Below are positions 358 to 19,255 of a stretch of DNA of 20,473 bases, one piece after another. The translations under genes were made by a program, and so were the position numbers. Within the stretch, counting starts at the first letter, position 1. Each line of letters starts with the position of its first letter. The stretch covers positions 1 to 20,473 of IMG/VR virus record IMGVR_UViG_3300035190_000162. The stretch is one strand, 5' to 3'. The notes beneath the pieces were generated by a model. The model ran no database searches, was not told the origin of the DNA, and was given only the letters and a program-made list of their open reading frames with translations. The stretch is from a virus.

Positions 358-2081
358 TGGCAGAAGCAGCAGCAGCAGGTGTGGCAATAGAAAGTTTGAC
401 GAAACAACTTCGTGCGCTCAAACAAGAACTTGCTACACTTGACCCAAATACGGCAAAGTTTCAAGAGTTAGCACTACAAGCTGGTCAAGTTAAAGACCAG
501 ATAAACGATGCTTCGGAAGCTATGAACGCCAACGCAGGTTCTGCATTCGAGCGTCTTAGCAATAATGCCAACCTATTAAAGGATAGGCTTTTCAATCTTG
601 ACTTTGAAGGTGTCACAAGTTCCGTAAAAGGACTTGCAGGGCAGGTGGGTAACGTAAGTTTTAAAGGTGCGATTAGCGGAATAAAAGATTTTGGCGGTGC
701 ATTGAAAGCACTTGGTACGGCATTGTTGACCAATCCAATATTCTTACTCGTCGCTGCTATTGCTGCCATAGGTATGGCGGTTAAAGCTTTACTTGACGAT
801 CAACGAAACGATGTCGATGAAGCCAACAAATCTATTGATGCGTCAAACGAGCAAAGGCATAATCTTGAAAGACTGAGAATGGCTGAGGCGGCAGGTAACG
901 AAAAGGCGTTATCCGACTTGAAGCGAAAGAGTATGAAGGAAGACATCAAGGATACAAAGGATAAGATTGACAACTTGATGTGGATGGAAAGACAAGCTTA
1001 CGGCTTGAGTGATGAGCAGGAAAAACAACTTGATGAGTTAAGAAAAAAGTATTCTCAACAGAGAGTAGATTATGAGATTCAAGCAGTCAATGAGATGATG
1101 AATCTCAACCGAATGATTCTTGAAAATGAAAAGACTATTTATCAATCAAAGTTAAGCGCAAGACAAATTGAGTTACAAAGTTTGGACGAATGGTTTGCCA
1201 AACAGTTGACTATGGCAGGAGATAACGAACGAGCGTTAGAAGCTGCAAATGATGCGTACTTTGTTAAGAAGGGACAAATCACTGACAAGTTTAATAAAGA
1301 AGACGCAGCCAAATCAAAGGCGGCTAAAGATAAAAATGTAGAAACCACAAAAGCCGAAAAAGAAGCGCAGAAAAAAGAAGATGAAAAATACTATGAGTGG
1401 TCAAGAAATGAACTGAATACTTTTTTAGAAAACAAAAACGAAGCACAAATTCAGTCGTTTTCAGCAGGTTTAAAAACATTAGAACCTGCGCTTAAACAAT
1501 GGAACGGAATACAACTTAAACTATCAAGAGAAGAAGTTGAAGCCAATAAGCTATTACAAAAAGAAAAATATGCAACGCAAGTACAATTAGCTTCGGATGC
1601 GGTTGGTTCATTGATGGCGTTGAATGATGCTTTCGCTAATGGTTCTGAGAAGTCAGCTAAAAGAGCGTTCCAAATAAACAAAGCCTTATCACTTGCTCAG
1701 GCAATTATGTCAACGTATCAAGCGGTTAACGCTCAACTTGCCGTTCCGCAAAGTGCAATTACGGGAACAACTTATATTAAAGCAGGTATTGCACTCGTGG
1801 CAGGTCTTGCTAACGTAGCGAAGATTTCTAAAACTCAATTTGGAGGTGGAGGTGGCGGTGGAGGTGGAGGCGGTTCAATGAGTAGCGGCGGCGGTTCACT
1901 TGGTGGTGGTGGTGGTGGTAGTTCAATGACAAGTGTCACACCTGCGTTCAATCCACTCAACACATCGTTTCTAAATAATAGACCAGCGCAGACGGGAGCA
2001 GTTCAAGCATACGTGCTATCGAGCAACGTGTCATCTGCAATGGAAGCAAACCAAAAAGTTAAAGACCAAACAGTTTTATAA
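357..2081 (+). CDS. Tape-measure-like tail protein
   Basis: A 574-residue protein with the features of phage tape-measure proteins, which set tail length and help DNA cross the cell envelope. Residues 1-56 and about 195-345 are charged, heptad-like and predicted coiled coil. Residues 127-146 (around TNPIFLLVAAIAAIGMAVKALL) form a hydrophobic segment of the kind such proteins carry. Near the C-terminus there is a low-complexity glycine stretch (11 Gly at 496-506, 6 Gly at 516-521). The last ~25 residues (VLSSNVSSAMEANQKVKDQ) resemble the tail end of similar proteins in Bacteroidota phages. No peptidase or lysozyme domain is visible. At 574 residues it is short for a long-tailed siphovirus. It lies upstream of the protease and capsid genes, which is unusual; an internal virion protein is the main alternative. 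Confidence 0.65.
   Translation: MAEAAAAGVAIESLTKQLRALKQELATLDPNTAKFQELALQAGQVKDQINDASEAMNANAGSAFERLSNNANLLKDRLFNLDFEGVTSSVKGLAGQVGNVSFKGAISGIKDFGGALKALGTALLTNPIFLLVAAIAAIGMAVKALLDDQRNDVDEANKSIDASNEQRHNLERLRMAEAAGNEKALSDLKRKSMKEDIKDTKDKIDNLMWMERQAYGLSDEQEKQLDELRKKYSQQRVDYEIQAVNEMMNLNRMILENEKTIYQSKLSARQIELQSLDEWFAKQLTMAGDNERALEAANDAYFVKKGQITDKFNKEDAAKSKAAKDKNVETTKAEKEAQKKEDEKYYEWSRNELNTFLENKNEAQIQSFSAGLKTLEPALKQWNGIQLKLSREEVEANKLLQKEKYATQVQLASDAVGSLMALNDAFANGSEKSAKRAFQINKALSLAQAIMSTYQAVNAQLAVPQSAITGTTYIKAGIALVAGLANVAKISKTQFGGGGGGGGGGGSMSSGGGSLGGGGGGSSMTSVTPAFNPLNTSFLNNRPAQTGAVQAYVLSSNVSSAMEANQKVKDQTVL
1842..1919 (+). repeat. GGN codon repeat encoding two glycine runs
   Basis: Eleven consecutive GGN codons (1842-1874), then a Ser/Met/Ser spacer, three more Gly codons, and six GGT codons (1902-1919). 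The wobble bases vary in the first run and are all T in the last. It encodes a flexible linker near the C-terminus of the tape-measure-like protein and could change length by slippage. Confidence 0.85.
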
Positions 2082-2082
2082 T

Positions 2083-2667
2083 ATGAAAAAAGAAGTAAGA
2101 CAATACGACATCGACGAGGAAGGATTCTTAGGTGTCCAAGCAATTTCACTAGTTGAATTTCCTGCTATTGAAGTAGACTTTATCGCGCTCTCCAAAGAGA
2201 AGAAAGTAAAGCTATCTGATATCCAAGAGGAGCGCAAGATGGTGTACGGTGCGGCATTGATTCCCGATAAATTGATCTATCGTGAAGATGGTGACGGCAC
2301 TCCATACTACGCACAGTTCACTTCTAAACTAATTGAGAAGGTAGCGCACAATTTCTTGCTAAAGAATCTGCAACACAACCACACAGTAGAACATACTTTT
2401 GCCGTGACTGGATTGACAGTTGTTGAATCGTGGTTGAAAGAAGGCGATAGTGACAAGTCGGTAGCACTTGGTTTTGAATTGCCAGTTGGTACTTGGTTCG
2501 TTGGTGTTAAAGTTGACAATGAAGAAGTTTGGCAGCAAGTGAAAGAAGGCAAGATTAAAGGATTCTCGATTGAAGGATTCTTCAACGAGGTGGGTGTTGA
2601 AATGTCACGTGGAGAAATAAGAGAAAATTGGGCGAATGAAATAGATAACTACCTATCTTCGCTATAA
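2083..2667 (+). CDS. Prohead protease, XkdF-like (Peptidase_S78_2 type)
   Basis: A 194-residue protein resembling the XkdF family of putative phage serine proteases, which process scaffold and capsid proteins during head maturation. Visible marks are the His-rich motif LQHNHTVEHT (residues 96-105), then TVVESWL (112-118), the LPVGTWFVGVKV strand (133-144), and KGFSIEGFF (159-167) with Ser162 in the GFSxEG motif typical of this family. Which His and Ser are catalytic cannot be settled by eye. The start is one base after the previous stop (TAATATG). The gene is followed by a terminator and then the scaffold-like and major capsid genes, the expected context for a maturation protease. Confidence 0.8.
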   Translation: MKKEVRQYDIDEEGFLGVQAISLVEFPAIEVDFIALSKEKKVKLSDIQEERKMVYGAALIPDKLIYREDGDGTPYYAQFTSKLIEKVAHNFLLKNLQHNHTVEHTFAVTGLTVVESWLKEGDSDKSVALGFELPVGTWFVGVKVDNEEVWQQVKEGKIKGFSIEGFFNEVGVEMSRGEIRENWANEIDNYLSSL

Positions 2668-2719
2668 GATTATTGTGTTTTGTGTTCATTGTGTTAATGT
2701 GTTTTTGTTAAGGTTAGGG

Positions 2720-2754
2720 AAGCCCGTTGCTAATGAGTGACGGGCTTTTCTTTT
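2720..2754 (+). terminator. Intrinsic terminator after the protease gene
   Basis: Perfect 8-bp stem AAGCCCGT (2720-2727) pairing with ACGGGCTT (2740-2747) around a 12-base loop, followed by a T-rich tract to 2754. It lies 52 bases after the protease stop and 67 bases before the scaffold-like gene. Confidence 0.85.
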
Positions 2755-2821
2755 ACTGTTAATAAATATTTGTCTAATGGTTTTCGCTCGATATATTATC
2801 TAGCGTAAATCAATATACAAA

Positions 2822-3406
2822 ATGAAAGTAATAGAAACATTGAGTGCTATCTTGAAGAAGCACAACATCAAAGGCATTTCGCTTTCTGAAGTAGTTGAAG
2901 TTAAGATGTCGATGGAGGGAACTCTTGCAGATGGTACTTTGGTAGCAACACCTAGTGACTCGTTTGAAGTAGGAGCAGAACTTTACGTTATCGATGCTGA
3001 AGGTAACCCACAACCTGCACCAGACGGAGAGCATACGCTTGACAACGGTTCAGTTATAGTTACTGTTGGCGGCTTCATTACTGAAATGAAAGAAGCGGAA
3101 GTAGCAGAAGAAGAAATGAGTGCAGACATCGCAGCGGTTATCGCAGCAATGGATGAGCAGTTGACATCTATCAAGAATCAACTAGCAGAACGTGACACGC
3201 AGTTGTCAGCAGTTACAGAAGAATTAAGCGCAGTGAAAACTGACTTGACTATCGCAACTGCTAAGGCTACTGAATTGTCAAGAAAAGCAGCGGCAGTATC
3301 TATCAAAGATGAAACACCTGCGGCTGAAATCTCAGCAGTAAATTTTTCAAAAAAACAAACTAAAAACGACAGAATCCTAAACAAGATTATGTCACTAAAA
3401 AAATAA
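2822..3406 (+). CDS. Scaffold-like capsid assembly protein
   Basis: A 194-residue acidic protein directly before the major capsid gene. The N-terminal half (residues 1-95) is a small beta-rich domain containing LADGTLV and NPQPAPDGEHTLDNGSVI, a pattern common in Bacteroidota phage proteins found between the XkdF protease and the capsid gene. Residues 100-165 form an Ala/Glu/Leu-rich coiled coil (LTSIKNQLAERDTQLSAVTE). The C-terminus is basic (KNDRILNKIMSLKK), as in scaffolds whose tail binds the capsid shell. The likely role is an internal scaffold cleaved by the upstream protease. It may also contribute an accessory domain to the head. The ATG follows an A-rich leader with no Shine-Dalgarno. 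Confidence 0.7.
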   Translation: MKVIETLSAILKKHNIKGISLSEVVEVKMSMEGTLADGTLVATPSDSFEVGAELYVIDAEGNPQPAPDGEHTLDNGSVIVTVGGFITEMKEAEVAEEEMSADIAAVIAAMDEQLTSIKNQLAERDTQLSAVTEELSAVKTDLTIATAKATELSRKAAAVSIKDETPAAEISAVNFSKKQTKNDRILNKIMSLKK

Positions 3407-3412
3407 TAAGAA

Positions 3413-4360
3413 ATGGCTACATCATTAACTATTAGCAGTTCGTCGTATGCAGGTGCGTTAGCACTACCATACATCCAAGCTGCTATTCTATCGGGCGATA
3501 CTCTAGCTAACGGCTACATCGCTATCAAAGAAAACGTAAAGTACAAAGCGGTTATCAAGAAACTTTCATCAAGTGGATTGGTTGTTGCTGCTACTTGTGA
3601 TTTCACAGTCGCAGGTTCTGTTACTCTAGCGGAAACTACACTTACAACTACTGACTTGAACACAAACGTTGAGCTTTGCAAAAAGCAATTCGTTCAAGAT
3701 TGGGAAGCTTACAACACGGGTGCAGGTTTCATCAATGACCAAGTGCCAGTTGAGTTCGCTGACTTTATGTTGGCTCACATCGCTGCAAAAGTTGGAGAGG
3801 CTATCGAGTTTAATTTGTGGCAGGGTAACTTTGATGCTGCGTCTTCAAATGCAACACCAACTTACACTGCTTTCACGGGTCTTCTTCGCACAATTGACAA
3901 CGCGAAATCAGGTACTCCTGATGTTGACTTCTCTGCTGCTACTTCTGCGTCAAACGTTATCGCGCAAATGCAATCAGTATTGGCTGCTCTACCATCTACA
4001 TTGATTGGCAAGACAGATACTGTTAAGCTTTATGTTAACCGTAAGACTGCTCAGTTCTACCGTCAAGCAATCAACACACTTGGCTATCAGTTCACATACA
4101 ATGCAACGGGTGAAGCACCAGTGCTAGTTGATGGATATGAAATCTATGTTTGCCCAGGTATTCCAGACTCAACAATGGTTGCTGCTGAAGCTGACAATTT
4201 GTTCTTTGGTACTGATCTATTGAGCGACTTGAACGAGGCGAAAGTGATTGATATGTCAATGACTGACGGTTCAGACAACGTGCGTATTGCAATGCGTTAC
4301 CGTGCAGGTACTGCTATCGGATTCGGTGCAGATATCTCTTTGGGATACGTTAATCCATAA
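3413..4360 (+). CDS. Major capsid protein
   Basis: A 315-residue protein of typical major capsid length, starting six bases after the scaffold-like gene. The fold cannot be proved by eye, but an HK97-type capsid protein is supported by three features. There is a mid-protein helical segment (KKQFVQDWEAYNTGAGFIND, then ADFMLAHIAAKVGEAIEFNLWQG). A central domain contains LYVNRKTAQFYRQAINTLG. A C-terminal beta region has GYEIYVCPGIPDSTMVAAEADNLFFGTDL followed by VRIAMRYRAGTAIGFGADISLGYV. Position after protease and scaffold and before a strong terminator agrees with a highly expressed shell protein. Confidence 0.85.
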   Translation: MATSLTISSSSYAGALALPYIQAAILSGDTLANGYIAIKENVKYKAVIKKLSSSGLVVAATCDFTVAGSVTLAETTLTTTDLNTNVELCKKQFVQDWEAYNTGAGFINDQVPVEFADFMLAHIAAKVGEAIEFNLWQGNFDAASSNATPTYTAFTGLLRTIDNAKSGTPDVDFSAATSASNVIAQMQSVLAALPSTLIGKTDTVKLYVNRKTAQFYRQAINTLGYQFTYNATGEAPVLVDGYEIYVCPGIPDSTMVAAEADNLFFGTDLLSDLNEAKVIDMSMTDGSDNVRIAMRYRAGTAIGFGADISLGYVNP

Positions 4361-9884: not shown

Positions 9885-10090
9885 TGATAGATTTGAATCT
9901 CAAAGTGCGCTATCGGATAGGCGATATTGTCTACTGTCGGTCAGATGTTGACAGTCGGTTACGCTTTGTAACTGGCTTTATCATCCGCAAAGGAATGATA
10001 ATATACATTGTATCAATGGAAGGCAGCGAAGCCTACTTTTACGACTTCGAATTGATAAGTGAGAATGAGCAGTTGATGGGGTTAAATTGA
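9881..10090 (+). CDS. Small protein, unknown function
   Basis: A 69-residue protein overlapping the phosphoesterase by ATGA; a second ATG at 9884 is an equally good start. The segment VRYRIGDIVYCRSDVDSRLRFVTGFIIRKGMIIYIVS looks like a small beta-barrel. Its strongly conserved feel (GDIVYxxSD) is shared with short proteins of many Bacteroidota phages. It is the last gene of the rightward block and its stop overlaps the end of the convergent leftward gene by 9 bases. Confidence 0.65.
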   Translation: MMIDLNLKVRYRIGDIVYCRSDVDSRLRFVTGFIIRKGMIIYIVSMEGSEAYFYDFELISENEQLMGLN

Positions 10091-11994: not shown

Positions 11995-13296
11995 CTATCT
12001 TATAGCGTACCTGCCGTAATTCGGATACAGTTCAAAGTACATTCTCATCATCATCATATCTGCGAAGTCGGGGGAGAAGCCGTGTTTCTTTTTGATTTCT
12101 TCTTTACTGGTAACGGCCTTCTTTCTCTCACGATCAATATGAGCAATTCTCACAACTTCTAAATGCTTAATTATTTCAGTCTTGTACTTGTCAGCGGCAA
12201 TGGTCAACTTGTTTGCGTTAATATACTCGCCCATTTTAAAGTAGCACTCCGCTTTCAAGTTCATATAGGTTTCGCTATCTATCGCACGACCACCATTGTT
12301 GAATGATTGACACTTTAAAATACCAACTACTCCGATACCTAATCCGTCAGCATCAACCACAATATTTGAAAGCTTCACGTTTCTTTCCTTTGCTAAATTA
12401 CGGATAAATTCTGCGACCTCGTTTGGATACTTATGCTCCATCATAAACACATCGACTAGCGACATTCCCGACCACAGACCAATAATTGTTTTATCATTAC
12501 CGAGTGCTGCGATGTCGGCAGTAATGTAAGCGGTAGTGCCTATCAATTCGTTTCTAAAACATCTCAACAAGTCATCGTAGTAGTAAAGTCTATCGTTGCT
12601 CTCATCATAGTCCCAATCACCATCTAAAAGTCTTTTACGGTCAATCTCTGGAAGGCGTGACAACTTCTCAAGGTAGGCAGGTTCAAGATTCGGATTGTCT
12701 GTCGGCAATGCCTTGATGAATGCTCTGTCCTCTCGCAGCGTTCCATTTCGTGCAGCGTCGAAGTAGTCAGCGTATAACCACCCTTTAGTTGGGTTGCAGG
12801 AGAGTAATCCTTTCGGAACACCATTGATTAAGTTATAACGCACACGAGAATCTAGTATATCGATTGCCCGTTGAGAAACTTCAGCGACCTCATCCACAAA
12901 ATAGTCTGTAATTTCAATCGAACCAAGTCTACTAAATTCAGGGTCACTAGGCATAAAGCCTAAGTCCATCAAGACAATTTGAGACCCGTTGTAGAACTTG
13001 ATGACGTGGTCTTGACCGTTGTAGGTGTAGTGAGTGCCAGGGCGAAGTCCCATCTGATTAGCAATCGTCCAAAAGGTAGCCATCGTTGACTGTCGAAGTC
13101 GCTTTAATTCTGCACGACCTATCAATCCTCTGGTGTTTGCATATTTTAATCTGCGATTAATCTGCCAAGAACACCCAAGAAATGTTTTGCCACCACCTGC
13201 ACTTCCGCCATACAACACTGTTTCTGTTATCAGGTCTTTAGGCGATAACAAAGTCAATGCTTCATCTTGGCGAGTAGTGTATTGGGGTGTGTACAT
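11995..13296 (-). CDS. terL: Terminase large subunit
   Basis: A 433-residue DNA-packaging motor. The N-terminal ATPase has a Walker A motif GGSAGGGKT (residues 30-38), Walker B ITDYFVDE with Asp135 and Glu136, and a coupling motif LLSCNPTK (164-171). The C-terminal nuclease of RNase H fold has the acidic residues in TADIAALGNDKTIIGLW (Asp261), IVVDADGLGIG (Asp315, Asp317) and SPDFADMMMM (Asp410, Asp413). All key residues are present, so it should be active. It cuts the DNA concatemer and pumps DNA through the portal encoded on the other strand at 5397-7328. No small terminase was recognised next to it; an HNH endonuclease lies immediately upstream. Confidence 0.95.
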   Translation of the reverse strand: MYTPQYTTRQDEALTLLSPKDLITETVLYGGSAGGGKTFLGCSWQINRRLKYANTRGLIGRAELKRLRQSTMATFWTIANQMGLRPGTHYTYNGQDHVIKFYNGSQIVLMDLGFMPSDPEFSRLGSIEITDYFVDEVAEVSQRAIDILDSRVRYNLINGVPKGLLSCNPTKGWLYADYFDAARNGTLREDRAFIKALPTDNPNLEPAYLEKLSRLPEIDRKRLLDGDWDYDESNDRLYYYDDLLRCFRNELIGTTAYITADIAALGNDKTIIGLWSGMSLVDVFMMEHKYPNEVAEFIRNLAKERNVKLSNIVVDADGLGIGVVGILKCQSFNNGGRAIDSETYMNLKAECYFKMGEYINANKLTIAADKYKTEIIKHLEVVRIAHIDRERKKAVTSKEEIKKKHGFSPDFADMMMMRMYFELYPNYGRYAIR

Positions 13297-13305
13297 TTGG
13301 TAAAA

Positions 13306-13764
13306 TTAGTGATTTATAACGTGGTAAATTTCTTTCGCTTTTAGATATGCGTTTCGTGCTTCTTGTTCGGTGTGAAAGTATCCGATATGCTTAGATTTCC
13401 CATTAACCTCTATTTTAACTTTAAACTTGCTTCTTTTTTCCATCCAAGTGTAACCTTTAGCAGTTCTTCGATTCCACATATTTTGTTGATGCGTTACATC
13501 ACGTAAATTATCAATTTTGTTATTACTAGGATTGCCATCTATATGGTCAATTGAATTAACGGGCAAATGTCCATAATGCAGATACCAAGCAAGTCTGTGA
13601 CCACCTATAAAAAAACGTTTACTTTGATAACGTAATTGAACAAAAGTATATCCATAAATTTTTTTCCTAATTACTTTACCATACACACCTCTAATTTCTC
13701 CGCTTACTGGACAGTAAGTAAAACCTTTTTCTTTTGCCAATTCACATCTTTCTAGTGTAGTCAT
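13306..13764 (-). CDS. HNH homing endonuclease with AP2-like DNA-binding domain
   Basis: A 152-residue free-standing endonuclease. The HNH core covers about residues 55-99: GGHRLAWYLHYGHLP, IDHIDGNPSNNKIDNL (Asp73, His74, Asn82, Asn86), then THQQNMWNR (Asn95). The C-terminal region (103-147; GYTWMEKRSKFKVKIEVNGK, HIGYFHTEQEARNAYLKAK) matches an AP2-type DNA-binding domain, a common partner of HNH in phage homing endonucleases. It lies 9 bases upstream of the large terminase start and 2 bases downstream of the preceding gene, so it sits cleanly between genes. Its codons are more AT-rich than its neighbours, consistent with insertion as a selfish gene. Confidence 0.9.
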   Translation of the reverse strand: MTTLERCELAKEKGFTYCPVSGEIRGVYGKVIRKKIYGYTFVQLRYQSKRFFIGGHRLAWYLHYGHLPVNSIDHIDGNPSNNKIDNLRDVTHQQNMWNRRTAKGYTWMEKRSKFKVKIEVNGKSKHIGYFHTEQEARNAYLKAKEIYHVINH

Positions 13765-15087: not shown

Positions 15088-15558
15088 TTATTTAGGTTGT
15101 TGCAGTGTTTGTGAAATCTTGGCTAAAGTAGTGAACCCTCTTAGGTTCAGATACTCATTTAGACTAATTAACATTTGGTTTAACTTCTTGTCATAGCCTA
15201 AAGTGTTAGAGCATCGTTTCGTCGCGTGGATTACCGATGCGTGGTGGCGGTTAAAAATCGCGGCTAATCTTGTTAGCGTCATTCGCTGCGAGAATTCCAT
15301 TTGAATACAGTAAAGGGCAATGTGTCTTATGTAAACGATGTCCTGCAACCTGCTCTTACTTTGGATTTCTTTCATTCCAATACTGTGATAACACTGTGAC
15401 CATTCGCAGATGGCGGATATGAACTTGGATAGTTCGATATCGTCTACGGTTGAGTGGTCGCGCGACTTGTTCTGAGCGATTATTAACTCAATGAACTCCT
15501 GCTTATTCGCATCCTTCACCATCGGTAGAAGTGTGTTTATGTCTATACTCATTTTCAA
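15088..15558 (-). CDS. DnaA domain IV-like DNA-binding protein
   Basis: A 156-residue protein whose residues 68-118 match the C-terminal DNA-binding domain of the bacterial initiator DnaA. It has the basic loop and helix KSRLQDIVYIRHIALYCI, then the HTH TLTRLAAIFNRHHASVIHATKRC. In DnaA the corresponding signature is FGxRDHSTVxHA; here it reads FNRHHASVIHA, so the Asp and Thr are changed while the flanking pattern is kept. There is no AAA+ domain. The N-terminal 60 residues are helical. Such stand-alone domains occur in phages and may bind an origin or DnaA boxes, or modulate host DnaA. The start overlaps the upstream HTH gene by 56 bases. Confidence 0.8.
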   Translation of the reverse strand: MKMSIDINTLLPMVKDANKQEFIELIIAQNKSRDHSTVDDIELSKFISAICEWSQCYHSIGMKEIQSKSRLQDIVYIRHIALYCIQMEFSQRMTLTRLAAIFNRHHASVIHATKRCSNTLGYDKKLNQMLISLNEYLNLRGFTTLAKISQTLQQPK

Positions 15559-15769
15559 TTAATTGTATTAGTTCGTTAATGTTAGTGCCAGTATGCGCAG
15601 CGACTTTCATTATCTGAAGTGCTGACATCTGTTGGGGTTGATTCGCGTAATGCGTGGCGGTGTTTCGGCAGACCTTAAGAAACGTGCCGAAGTTCGACAC
15701 GCTCTTAAAGTTTTGCTTCACAAACACCCTAAAATCAGAAAGGCAAATCTGAGTAGTCTTCTGTGTCAT
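15503..15769 (-). CDS. Small helix-turn-helix protein, possible regulator
   Basis: An 88-residue protein from the ATG at 15769. The frame is open to 15907, but that extension is the wrong-frame shadow of the SSB-like gene. Residues 9-65 (LSDFRVFVKQNFKSVSNFGTFLKVCRNTATHYANQPQQMSALQIMKVAAHTGTNINELI; key features are VSNFGTFLKV, RNTATHYAN and SALQIMKVAAHTG) have the spacing of an XRE/Cro-like helix-turn-helix. It overlaps the upstream gene by 35 bases and the downstream gene by 56 bases. It could be the protein that binds the palindrome at the leftward promoter, but that is speculation. Confidence 0.65.
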   Translation of the reverse strand: MTQKTTQICLSDFRVFVKQNFKSVSNFGTFLKVCRNTATHYANQPQQMSALQIMKVAAHTGTNINELIQLIENEYRHKHTSTDGEGCE

Positions 15770-17745: not shown

Positions 17746-17786
17746 TGTCGTGTGTTTATTAATTTGTGTATCTTTGTTTTGTTTGA

Positions 17787-17817
17787 CAAATGTACTACAA
17801 CTTTCCGATTGCGCAAA
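17787..17817 (-). promoter_or_regulatory. Leftward Bacteroidota-type promoter
   Basis: On the minus strand a -33 element TTTG (17814-17817) is followed by 19 bases and a perfect -7 element TACATTTG (17787-17794; consensus TAnnTTTG). This is the known Bacteroidota primary sigma-factor promoter form. Transcription should start about 17780 and run through the leftward genes, the first of which starts at 17745. Confidence 0.8.
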
Positions 17818-17828
17818 TATTTGAGCAA
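17809..17828. promoter_or_regulatory. Imperfect 20-bp palindrome over the -33 element (possible operator)
   Basis: TTGCGCAAATATTTGAGCAA is an inverted repeat with 9 of 10 half-site pairs matched and a perfect CAAATATTTG core. It covers the -33 box of the leftward promoter and lies about 40 bases upstream of the rightward VRR-NUC gene. A dimeric repressor here could control the leftward promoter and perhaps rightward transcription as well. Confidence 0.5.
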
Positions 17829-17866
17829 AAAGAATTGTTAAAAAAAGTTAAAATCTGTATAACTGC

Positions 17867-18241
17867 TTGATACTAAATAAGAAACCCATAGGAAAAAAAA
17901 CTACTGAGTATGAAGATTCCGTCCAAAAAGCCGTAATCAACTATCTCAAGTACGCTTATCCAACTGCGCTTTATTGCGCAAGTGCTGGTGGTGTGCGAAC
18001 TTCTTATAAGCAGGCAGTAAAAATGAAGCAGACTGGATATGTCAAAGGCTTTCCTGATCTATTCATCTACGAGTCAAGAAACGGTTACAACGGTCTAGCC
18101 ATCGAACTCAAGACATTGAAAGGTGTTGCATCACCAGAACAGAAGGAATGGAATAAGCGGCTCATAGAACGAGGTTATTCTGCTCACATATGCAAAGGGT
18201 TTGATGCAGCCATTCAAGTGATAGATGCGTATCTAAAATGA
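17867..18241 (+). CDS. VRR-NUC family nuclease
   Basis: A 124-residue stand-alone VRR-NUC protein, a PD-(D/E)XK-type nuclease found in many phages. Key residues are present: Glu16 (EYEDSVQ), the GFPDL motif with Asp64 (residues 61-65), the ExK motif in AIELKTLKG (Glu80, Lys82), and Gln92 in SPEQKEW. Stand-alone members are suggested to cut branched DNA or act in recombination and repair. There is no ATG before residue 53; the first plausible start is the TTG at 17867, with a stop 18 bases upstream. The gene ends in an ATGA overlap with the sigma-like gene. It is the first gene of a rightward early operon. Confidence 0.88.
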   Translation: MILNKKPIGKKTTEYEDSVQKAVINYLKYAYPTALYCASAGGVRTSYKQAVKMKQTGYVKGFPDLFIYESRNGYNGLAIELKTLKGVASPEQKEWNKRLIERGYSAHICKGFDAAIQVIDAYLK

Positions 18242-18732
18242 ATAATCTAACCATCATATACAATAGGCTTAAATCGTCCGCGAATCGGATGACAAAGAAT
18301 AGTTATGATGGGGATGAGTTACTTCATTTCACAATAGAGCACGCTCTCGACCACTCAATGAATCGCATTGACGAATTGTCTCCCGATCAATTATTCAGCT
18401 ATCTGAATAGGGCTATGTGGCTCGGATGGAATAGCAAGACATCAGCATTCAGGCAGGTGTATAAGTTAGACACCGTAGAATTTAGTGAGACATTAATCGA
18501 GTTTGAATCGTTTAACCTGCACGACCGTATCCGCATAGAGAATGTGGACATCGCACTCTCTCGCCTTCCAGACCACGAAAGAATTTTGTTTGAAGCTTAT
18601 CTTGAAGATGACTTTAACTATAAGGAATGGGCAGACATCGCAGGGGTAAGTGTTGAATATATGTATAAGTACATTAACTATATCAAATCTAAAATAAAAA
18701 AGTATGTGGTTCGCACAGGCAAAAGTTATTGA
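18238..18732 (+). CDS. Sigma-factor-like HTH protein
   Basis: A 164-residue protein that resembles a reduced sigma-70-type factor. Residues 25-76 (GDELLHFTIEHALDHS, DQLFSYLNRAMWLGWNSKTSAFRQVYK) are like the region 2 helices in phage-type sigma proteins. Residues 100-155 (VDIALSRLPDHERILFEAYLEDDFNYKEWADIAGVSVEYMYKYINYIKSKIKK; features LPxxERxLFEAY and a KEWADIAGVS turn) match a region 4 helix-turn-helix. It probably redirects transcription or binds phage DNA. Direct sigma activity is not proved, since region 2 is diverged. It overlaps the VRR-NUC gene by ATGA and the following gene by 29 bases. Confidence 0.7.
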   Translation: MNNLTIIYNRLKSSANRMTKNSYDGDELLHFTIEHALDHSMNRIDELSPDQLFSYLNRAMWLGWNSKTSAFRQVYKLDTVEFSETLIEFESFNLHDRIRIENVDIALSRLPDHERILFEAYLEDDFNYKEWADIAGVSVEYMYKYINYIKSKIKKYVVRTGKSY

Positions 18733-19117
18733 GGAGCGTAGGGCTATTTGTTCTGCGTGTAAATTTAGCCAACGAGAAGCTAAAGTCTTGTGGTGTGGTA
18801 AGCCGTTAATCGGTGGCGAAGTGACCTATCGCAAAAAGAAGCACAAACTCTGCGGTTGCAATATGTTTTTAAAGACCGCTTTCAAAAATGTAAAGTGTCC
18901 ACTTGACAAATGGACTAGCGTTGGCAACCTAACACTTGACGAAAAGGATGAGATAAGAACATTCCTTAAAGACATCCATACCGACTACGTGTCGCAGGAG
19001 CAGCTGAAGCAGTTGTATGATTATGCGTCGAAGGCTACTGGACACTATATTGAGCCAACTAAGTGTAGTCCTTGCATCAAAGACTTATTAACGAAATTGC
19101 GAAACGATATTGAATGA
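18704..19117 (+). CDS. Cys-rich, probable zinc-binding phage protein
   Basis: A 137-residue protein. The N-terminal half has CSAC (Cys16, Cys19), WCG (Cys31), then YRKKKHKLCGCNMF (Cys50, Cys52) and KCPLDKW (Cys65). This pattern of paired and single Cys residues, ending in CPLxKW, is shared by a phage protein family common in Bacteroidota phages and probably binds one or two zinc ions. A second CSPC pair (Cys121, Cys124) lies near the C-terminus after a linker helix. It may act with the sigma-like protein next to it, since the two genes overlap by 29 bases. The exact role is unknown. Confidence 0.72.
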   Translation: MWFAQAKVIEERRAICSACKFSQREAKVLWCGKPLIGGEVTYRKKKHKLCGCNMFLKTAFKNVKCPLDKWTSVGNLTLDEKDEIRTFLKDIHTDYVSQEQLKQLYDYASKATGHYIEPTKCSPCIKDLLTKLRNDIE

Positions 19118-19215
19118 GTAAAGATTCGATTTATTTTTGTGATGTATTAAAGCTAACCCTTCCAATGTCGGAATCCATTGAAAGGGTTAAGCAATCGAAA
19201 GTTGAAAGCTTTTGA
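19114..19215 (+). CDS. Very small protein (33 residues), unknown function
   Basis: Starts MSKDSIYFCDVLKLTLPMSE and ends KVESF. The ATG overlaps the upstream stop (ATGA), and the frame ends 4 bases before a terminator, which fits the last gene of the operon. The product is too short to assign. Confidence 0.45.
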   Translation: MSKDSIYFCDVLKLTLPMSESIERVKQSKVESF

Positions 19216-19219
19216 CCTT

Positions 19220-19255
19220 AGCCCCTAGAGATTCCGCTAGGGGCTTTCTTTTTGA
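19220..19255 (+). terminator. Intrinsic terminator ending the rightward early operon
   Basis: Perfect 9-bp stem AGCCCCTAG (19220-19228) with CTAGGGGCT (19237-19245), an 8-base loop, then TTCTTTTT. It closes the VRR-NUC, sigma-like and Cys-rich operon. Confidence 0.9.

Follow-up and report, generated by a model that had tools for sequence, protein, structure and literature searches.

Facing sigma-A type promoter boxes and a clade-specific palindrome in the divergent control region of a putative Bacteroidetes phage

In the temperate phage 186, early promoters lie face to face at a hub of the genome, tens of base pairs apart, and interfere with each other. Dyad operators are found at the early promoters of phages that encode TP901-1 MOR/CI and P22 c2, and the repressors of phage switches usually, though not universally, act at more than one related site. 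A different kind of shared control DNA is the bidirectional promoter of E. coli and Salmonella, described in the excerpted text of two studies as having divergent start sites 7–25 bp apart and a shared or overlapping –10 element (PMC12825309, PMC10268837). Bacteroidetes, a phylum without Shine–Dalgarno sequences, have sigma-A promoters of their own type; in the excerpts of the study of Flavobacterium johnsoniae, the –7 box occupies positions –12 to –5 and the –33 element is weak (PMC6847099). In F. psychrophilum, leaderless mRNAs make up 5.5% of those mapped, as given in the excerpted part of PMC9723704.

The control region described here belongs to a virus record of 20,473 bases (IMG/VR IMGVR_UViG_3300035190_000162), the whole of which was analysed and is referred to below as the window. 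Of the named phages, Flavobacterium phage 11b has the nearest large terminase (42.5% identity over 97%) and, because of this and of the Bacteroidetes-type promoters described below, we infer that the host is a member of the Bacteroidetes. A genome scan for the host also gave a single weak VRR-NUC match (37%) in an Arthrobacter genome, which is uninformative. The relatives reach about 30 kb, and exact end repeats of 127, 123 and 64 bases occur in three of the eight relatives' contigs compared; the 127-bp repeat is that of G001 (30,477 bp) and the 123-bp repeat that of G007. Most of the longer ORFs, in the window and in relatives such as these two, form two units that diverge from 17746–17866 and, in the window, converge again near 10,082–10,090. 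The placement between two divergent transcription units that an earlier note had given for the region is thus borne out by gene orientation. The leftward unit encodes a 220-aa protein (phrog_862, function unknown), an 88-residue helix-turn-helix (HTH) candidate, a protein with a DnaA-C domain, an HNH endonuclease and the large terminase; the rightward unit encodes a VRR-NUC nuclease, a sigma-like protein (17.3 bits against Pfam Sigma70_r4_2, under the cut-off of 25.7) and a DNA methyltransferase, to which G001, read through the contig end, adds structural and lysis genes. The large terminase gene (11995–13296, minus strand) is thereby in the unit with replication-type genes, the portal and capsid-type genes being on the rightward strand, and the HNH endonuclease gene (13306–13764) adjoins it.

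Upstream sequences were compared for the best 80 of 291 stretches of viral contigs encoding a relative of the adjacent VRR-NUC protein. These gave 79 upstream regions, or 66 distinct ones once 13 duplicates had been set aside, and duplicates were omitted likewise from the counts of symmetry and of facing pairs. The closest clade consists of the window, L002–L008 and L119, with six distinct haplotypes; a search with a 127-aa protein for further members returned 15 loci and, by their coordinates, no new control region. The features discussed below are collected in Table 1. In a comparison with 114 sequences, the first leftward ORF is matched nowhere but in the window and in L001, the window's own locus. 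The promoter and leader before this gene are almost identical in L002–L007, while the gene itself is without a match in relatives. The slot under the leftward promoter appears, from this comparison, to be one in which cassettes are quickly exchanged.

Table 1. Features of the control region and of neighbouring genes (coordinates of the window)
Feature	Coordinates	Strand	Basis or remark
Candidate Cro/CI-type HTH protein, 88 residues, leftward unit	15503–15769	–	AlphaFold2 model and PDB structural neighbours
First leftward ORF, 59 aa	17566–17745	–	ORF list
TATCTTTG, proposed rightward promoter; full match to the sigma-A type –7 box	17769–17776	+	Points towards the leftward –7 box
Predicted starts of the two transcripts	17781–17782		Rightward 17781, leftward 17782; derived by placing the box at –12 to –5
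Leftward promoter, TTG-N19-TACATTTG	17787–17816	–	TTG-N18–21-TAnnTTTG in 54 of 66 distinct upstream regions
Palindrome claimed in the earlier note, TTGCGCAAATATTTGAGCAA, 9 of 10 pairs	17809–17828		Left arm contains the leftward –33
Inner 18-bp dyad, candidate clade-specific operator	17810–17827		Half-sites TGCGCAAA / TTTGAGCA, 2-bp spacer
Strongly conserved A-rich block before the rightward gene	17829–17866	+	Leader/translation start region, or unrecognised promoter
First rightward gene, VRR-NUC nuclease family	17867–18241	+	PF08774, E 2.8e-9; TTG start as listed
Sigma-like protein	18238–18732	+	phrog_1740 RNA polymerase sigma factor, E 2.4e-9

That the leftward promoter is real is well supported by comparison of the upstream sequences. 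Its full form, TTTG-N19-TACATTTG (17787–17817, minus strand), has the TAnnTTTG of Bacteroidetes sigma-A promoters with TTG/TTTG about 19–21 nt upstream, and the minus-strand pattern recurs in the 54 distinct regions of Table 1 (from the best 80 of 291) with a variable spacer and a variable first leftward gene. In the wider family, the –33 sequences are TTGTGTATTC, TTGCTATCTC and similar. The 12 regions without the pattern are those of L029, L035, L037, L039, L041, L043, L051, L053, L059, L061, L069 and L073; judged by eye, several of them carry TCG for TTG or an altered –7 box, and the upstream regions of L043, L051, L053 and L073 look unrelated. In L008, the leftward box reads TATGTTTG, with a G at –9, a base reported as virtually absent from that position in F. 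johnsoniae (excerpted text of PMC6847099). A 9-bp sequence at the leftward –7 box, TTTGTCAAA, was considered as a shared element and rejected; by eye, it is present in regions that read TTTGACAAA and absent from those with GAGTACAAA, from L008 and from L094. A strict scan of the window for TTTG-N18–21-TAnnTTTG gave two matches against 0.72 expected, the second of which (1147–1179, minus strand) falls inside the long ORF 357–2081. With TTG accepted as the –33, two further matches end outside the longest ORFs, both on the plus strand: TTG-N21-TATCTTTG, with its last base at 17776, and TTG-N19-TATTTTTG, with its last base at 19139. Scans for the sigma-70 consensus and for terminators gave no excess over shuffles.

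The first of these plus-strand matches bears on the view, expressed in the earlier note, that the leftward promoter is the only clear one. That view is wrong: TATCTTTG is a perfect –7 box facing the leftward box, TACATTTG (17787–17794, minus strand), with 10 bp between them. Of 68 distinct regions, 60 have such a facing pair, compared with 11 of 1200 dinucleotide shuffles of those regions. The plus-strand member is TATCTTTG in 57 and TATATTTG in three of the paired regions, both within the TAnnTTTG consensus, and in all 60 the interval from the leftward –7 box to the rightward gene is free of further plus-strand TAnnTTTG boxes. The eight regions without a pair are L039 and L069, where the leftward box reads CGAAAGTA, together with L012, L037, L043, L051, L053 and L073. 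A rightward –33 is not conserved in the same way. TTG is found at spacings of 19, 20 and 21 in two, two and four of 57 regions, and is commoner at spacings of 13 (30 of 57) and 22 (12 of 57); it is present in the window (N21) and in G005 (N19).

Since a fitting rightward –33 is found in only some regions (TTG in eight of the 57), the plus-strand box may have a role in the leader of the leftward mRNA, and a possible, although on the whole doubtful, interpretation is that the leftward promoter alone belongs to the host type. TATCTTTG would then be CAAAGATA in the leftward leader, acting on translation or stability, and rightward transcription would start from the block 17835–17866, perhaps through the phage sigma-like protein or with an mRNA that is nearly leaderless. 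By eye, a TAACTNNTTG-like block directly ahead of the start codon is seen repeatedly in the upstream regions, and it lies within the best kept stretch of the clade; the sigma-like protein is encoded in the rightward unit, and in many relatives CAAAGATA is seen (by eye, uncounted) a few bases before the leftward start codon. However, the position of CAAAGATA is fixed neither relative to that codon, from which it is 23 nt away in the window and 4 nt away in L094, nor relative to the leftward –7 box. The sole substitutions found in the plus-strand box (three of 60) preserve TAnnTTTG. The pattern AA-N5–7-TAACTN(A/C)TTG occurs at most once per record in the nine records scanned, and is therefore no recurring promoter motif; it is upstream of the VRR gene in seven of the nine, elsewhere in G016 and nowhere in G005, and it misses the VRR block of G016, which reads TAACTCGTTG in L080. 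The small share of leaderless mRNAs in F. psychrophilum, as far as the excerpts of PMC9723704 give it, also tells against such a start.

The A-rich block itself is the most conserved stretch within the clade. Between the window and L008 or L119, respectively, 34 and 35 of 39 aligned columns are identical, compared with seven of 14 in the promoter spacer, and an account based on facing promoters explains this only loosely. The block is read here as a translation start region and could hide another kind of promoter. The palindrome lies just before it, within the leader predicted for the rightward transcript, and its arms pair in the predicted fold; these are the grounds on which it might act as an RNA hairpin in that leader. 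This is very improbable, because the leader (17781–17866) folds no better than shuffled sequence (z 0.16; 104 of 200 shuffles equally good) and a gapless palindrome has no loop unless its inner pairs open; the hairpin was rejected as a candidate on the result of the folding.

We lean, by a little, towards the interpretation that the conserved element consists of two face-to-face, mutually exclusive sigma-A promoters for two genome-wide units, the symmetry of the palindrome being specific to the clade. This interpretation is built on sequence, conservation and gene orientation, from which promoter activity, start sites and mutual exclusion are deduced. Region 17746–17866 would be the origin of both long divergent transcription units, and its core would be the two sigma-A type –7 boxes that point at each other 10 bp apart. 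The start sites in Table 1 are predicted because the –7 box spans –12 to –5 in the excerpted F. johnsoniae account (PMC6847099); because the two would lie side by side, at 17781 and 17782, a polymerase bound for one direction should exclude a polymerase bound for the other. The left arm of the palindrome carries the leftward –33 TTG that is kept by the wider family, and the symmetry itself is particular to a small clade. Any regulator that binds the palindrome would act in this lineage only, where it would mask the leftward –33 and obstruct the rightward transcript after about 38 bp of leader. The facing pair probably makes the phage choose which half of the genome to transcribe, and it is better supported than an operator or a lysogeny switch.

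The distance between the two boxes is 10–12 bp in 17 regions, 20–21 bp in 40, 16 bp in two and 25 bp in one. The two main spacing classes do not separate on a tree built from the VRR gene (61 rows) but are interleaved, and well-supported branches force at least 7–8 changes, the bootstrap being not fully settled. This pattern points to repeated change or to recombination, and the classes may represent two old alleles shuffled by recombination rather than a rule of helix phase. A more far-reaching proposal, which we regard as distinctly unlikely and put forward as speculation, is that a single facing sigma-A pair, with its boxes one or two turns of DNA apart (10–12 or 20–21 bp), runs the genomes, of about 30 kb, of a whole family of Bacteroidetes phages. 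The choice made by the polymerase at an element of 30–40 bp would then be the early/late toggle, biased by a lineage-specific tie-breaker, here an HTH dimer bound across the leftward –33 at the 18-bp dyad.

The palindrome had originally been proposed, in the earlier note, as a 20-bp inverted repeat over the –33 box, and hence as a repressor operator. Both the repeat and its position can be confirmed: nine of ten pairs form, the one mismatch being the fifth pair (G/A), and the left arm includes the leftward TTG. The repeat covers the leftward –33 (CAAA on the plus strand, 17814–17817) and is therefore a dyad that overlaps a core promoter. Across the window it is ordinary, since two gapless 20-bp repeats with at least nine of ten pairs are found against 0.77 (sd 0.88) in 60 dinucleotide shuffles. 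Within the 121-bp stretch 17746–17866, 1.5% of 3000 shuffles hold such a repeat, or 8.1% if gaps of 0–6 are allowed. No further copies of the candidate operator are found elsewhere in the window at up to three mismatches, and a degenerate pattern of the inner dyad gives a single site per record in four of four close-clade records, so that the several sites usual for the operator of a phage switch are not seen for the 18-bp dyad. The exact palindrome pattern was found in seven stretches of viral contigs, of which L111 and L112 belong to the clade of the window; each of the other five has at most one of the 14 proteins of the window used in the comparison.

It was in the relatives that the idea of a general operator failed. 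All 45 pattern-matched regions outside the closest clade have at most four of ten pairs (mean 1.6) at the homologous centre, the centres being placed by pattern and not by hand (that of L019 is misplaced), and the repeat is thus missing from wider-family regions that keep the promoter. An operator conserved throughout the phage family is, on this comparison, excluded, and the palindrome was rejected as a family-wide operator; the operator interpretation is at best clade-specific. An alternative dyad at a fixed place in the relatives was likewise rejected: in a scan for dyads of at least 16 bp with 7/8, 8/9 or 9/10 pairs, no centre is common to more than five of 50 regions, and the commonest dyads sit in A/T runs. 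An A/T-rich dyad of 16 bp (at least seven of eight pairs) occurs in L014 and L063, centred 1 bp off the claimed centre.

Within the clade, the 20-mer forms nine pairs in the window, L005 and L006, eight in L002, L003 and L007, and seven in L004, L008 and L119. Four distinct substitutions separate the window from L002–L007 over 17761–17866 (106 bp); three are inside the 20-mer (P 0.023 if all sites are equal) and each of the three breaks a pair. Against this stands the inner 18-mer, in which seven of eight pairs form in the window and in L119 and six of eight in L008 and L004. Its TGC...GCA arms are at the same spacing in all six haplotypes, and, relative to the window, L008 and L119 both swap one half-site pair on its two sides (A–T to T–A); L119 in addition converts the G/A mismatch of the window to G–C, and so arrives at seven of eight pairs after four half-site changes. 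Retention of the dyad to this extent was reached in 0.8–1.3% of random trials for L119, which counts as a hint because the test was set up after the alignment had been seen; the same random-placement test gave 20–22% for L008 and 100% for L004. Each arm of the 20-mer keeps seven of ten positions between the window and L008 or L119, and the right arm is thus not less kept than the left at this distance.

The protein that had been proposed to bind the repeat, the 88-residue product of the leftward unit, can be retained as a Cro/CI-type HTH candidate with moderate confidence, on the basis of its modelled structure. The AlphaFold2 model (mean pLDDT 80.4) has five helices predicted with confidence (residues 12–21, 24–31, 35–43, 50–60 and 64–79), as in a lambda-repressor-like fold, and its structural neighbours are mostly such folds, namely HigA antitoxins, TP901-1 MOR, P22 c2 and other Cro/CI-type proteins (TP901-1 MOR/CI and P22 c2 being represented by PDB 6tri, 6to6 and 2r1j). 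The scores are middling, with a best Foldseek E of 0.096, none at 0.001, and Z up to 7.5. Profile HTH_26 is matched by five of 15 family members (best E 0.0021) and not by the protein of the window, whose best Pfam match is Ribonuc_2-5A at 18.5 bits, below the cut-off of 23.3; HTH_3 is matched in none of 20 records. An HTH profile run against PDB sequences gave three designed repeat proteins and one weak match, and was set aside. The protein is matched in 79 of the 114 sequences compared, some of which are overlapping records. In L007 (about 2262–3080) and L093 (about 2–1222), the match begins without the first ten residues of the protein, and about 600 bp of additional sequence separate it from the 220-aa gene.

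Taken as a general operator, then, the palindrome does not survive comparison with the wider family, and what is left of the proposal is a clade-specific operator, which can be entertained because L119 keeps the 18-bp dyad by a compensatory change. In this form, a dimer of the 88-residue protein would bind 17810–17827, block the leftward –33 in an autorepressive manner, and obstruct the rightward transcript. We consider this rather unlikely. The constant arms and the paired changes in L008 and L119 speak for it, as do the predicted Cro/CI-type fold and the identity of the HTH protein, which is 55% between the window and L008 and 28–45% in the wider family, where the dyad is lacking. On the other hand, there is the absence of the dyad from all 45 other pattern-matched control regions, the loss of a pair in each of the three close substitutions inside the palindrome, and the single site per record. 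The compensatory case also depends on two related sequences. The highest symmetry of any 20-mer in the L119 region belongs to another, A/T-rich sequence (eight of ten pairs). Between the window and L119, seven of ten positions are kept in the right arm, compared with seven of 14 for the spacer and 35 of 39 for the adjoining block on the right.

It had further been suggested that the region might be a lysis–lysogeny or early–late switch. No match to Phage_integrase or Resolvase was found in any of 20 records (the window and 19 relatives, many of them perhaps fragments), the controls of this search being matched in 14 and 10 of 14 genomes; for want of a recombinase match, the lysogeny part is not supported. 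We infer that a balance between early and late, or left and right, is more likely than a lysogeny switch. Should the facing promoters be as proposed, a short DNA element would determine how strongly each half of the transcription programme is expressed relative to the other in a phage group represented by 291 related stretches, and would constitute a natural two-way promoter of the Bacteroidetes. The locus is also an example of how a palindrome from one genome can resemble an operator while comparison indicates something else.

Boxes of the same type precede candidate small RNAs elsewhere in these genomes. In L047 (3249–3331, plus strand), just downstream of a gene for a 137-aa protein, a TAnnTTTG box is followed by an RNA that fits an H-type pseudoknot ending in a U-run, and the same is found at this place in relatives. 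Over 18 of the 31 distinct sequences, the proportion of cells that pair is 100% for helix 1 and 97.6% for helix 2, the structure having been drawn by eye from the same sequences, with all slid controls pairing in less than 48% of cells. Thirty cells are changed on both sides (shuffle mean 10; none of 500 as high), and neither the six pairs with two-sided change (92 of 500 as high) nor the 11 further pair types (490 of 500 as high) exceed shuffles. A model of helix 1 alone matched 47 of 71 sources, L014 and L126 being one contig, and did not match the window; L047 and L069 have no Rfam match at gathering level. The L047 RNA is thus put forward as a candidate phage-encoded small RNA. Directly after it (3325–3417, plus strand) Rfam RF02932 (Betaproteobacteria-1 RNA) is weakly matched, with 29.8 bits where the gathering threshold is 49.4 (E 0.0014). 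At the equivalent place in the window (19110–19255, plus strand), TTG-N19-TATTTTTG (19110–19139) precedes a stretch of about 110 nt in which three hairpins are predicted, the third being terminator-like (19220–19245); the folding z is –4.55. Three hairpins are predicted also in L004, L006 and L007, with diverged stems; L003 has the sequence of the window, and L008 folds otherwise except in the last stem. On these predictions, 19110–19255 is likely to be another structured small RNA gene.

No paper on a phage control region of this kind, whether in its use of TAnnTTTG or of facing phage promoters, was among the matches listed in a search of the open-licence literature; several known systems resemble parts of it. 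The small HTH protein is, in its predicted fold, like TP901-1 MOR/CI and P22 c2; unlike them, the phage described here has a single, clade-specific and imperfect dyad, which is a candidate operator only. Phage 186 provides a parallel for opposing promoters at a hub of the genome, and differs in being temperate, whereas no recombinase match was found here, and in having its promoters much further apart than the present boxes. The proposed element is also like the bidirectional promoters of E. coli and Salmonella (as excerpted in PMC12825309 and PMC10268837), in that two orientations of polymerase would compete for one short stretch of DNA; in contrast to those promoters, the –7 boxes of the phage are separate and face each other, and the predicted starts converge, with predicted transcripts that overlap by about 2 nt at the 10-bp spacing or 13 nt at the 21-bp spacing. 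The closest likeness in sequence is to the sigma-A promoters of F. johnsoniae and F. psychrophilum (–33 TTTG, –7 TAnnTTTG; excerpts of PMC6847099 and PMC9723704), whose exact –7 consensus is found on both strands; a start 5 nt after the box is predicted for the phage. In F. johnsoniae, the –33 is weak, whereas the leftward –33 TTG of the phage family is strongly kept (excerpt of PMC6847099); and, unlike the promoters in the excerpted parts of these Bacteroidetes maps, those of the phage are two boxes that face each other.
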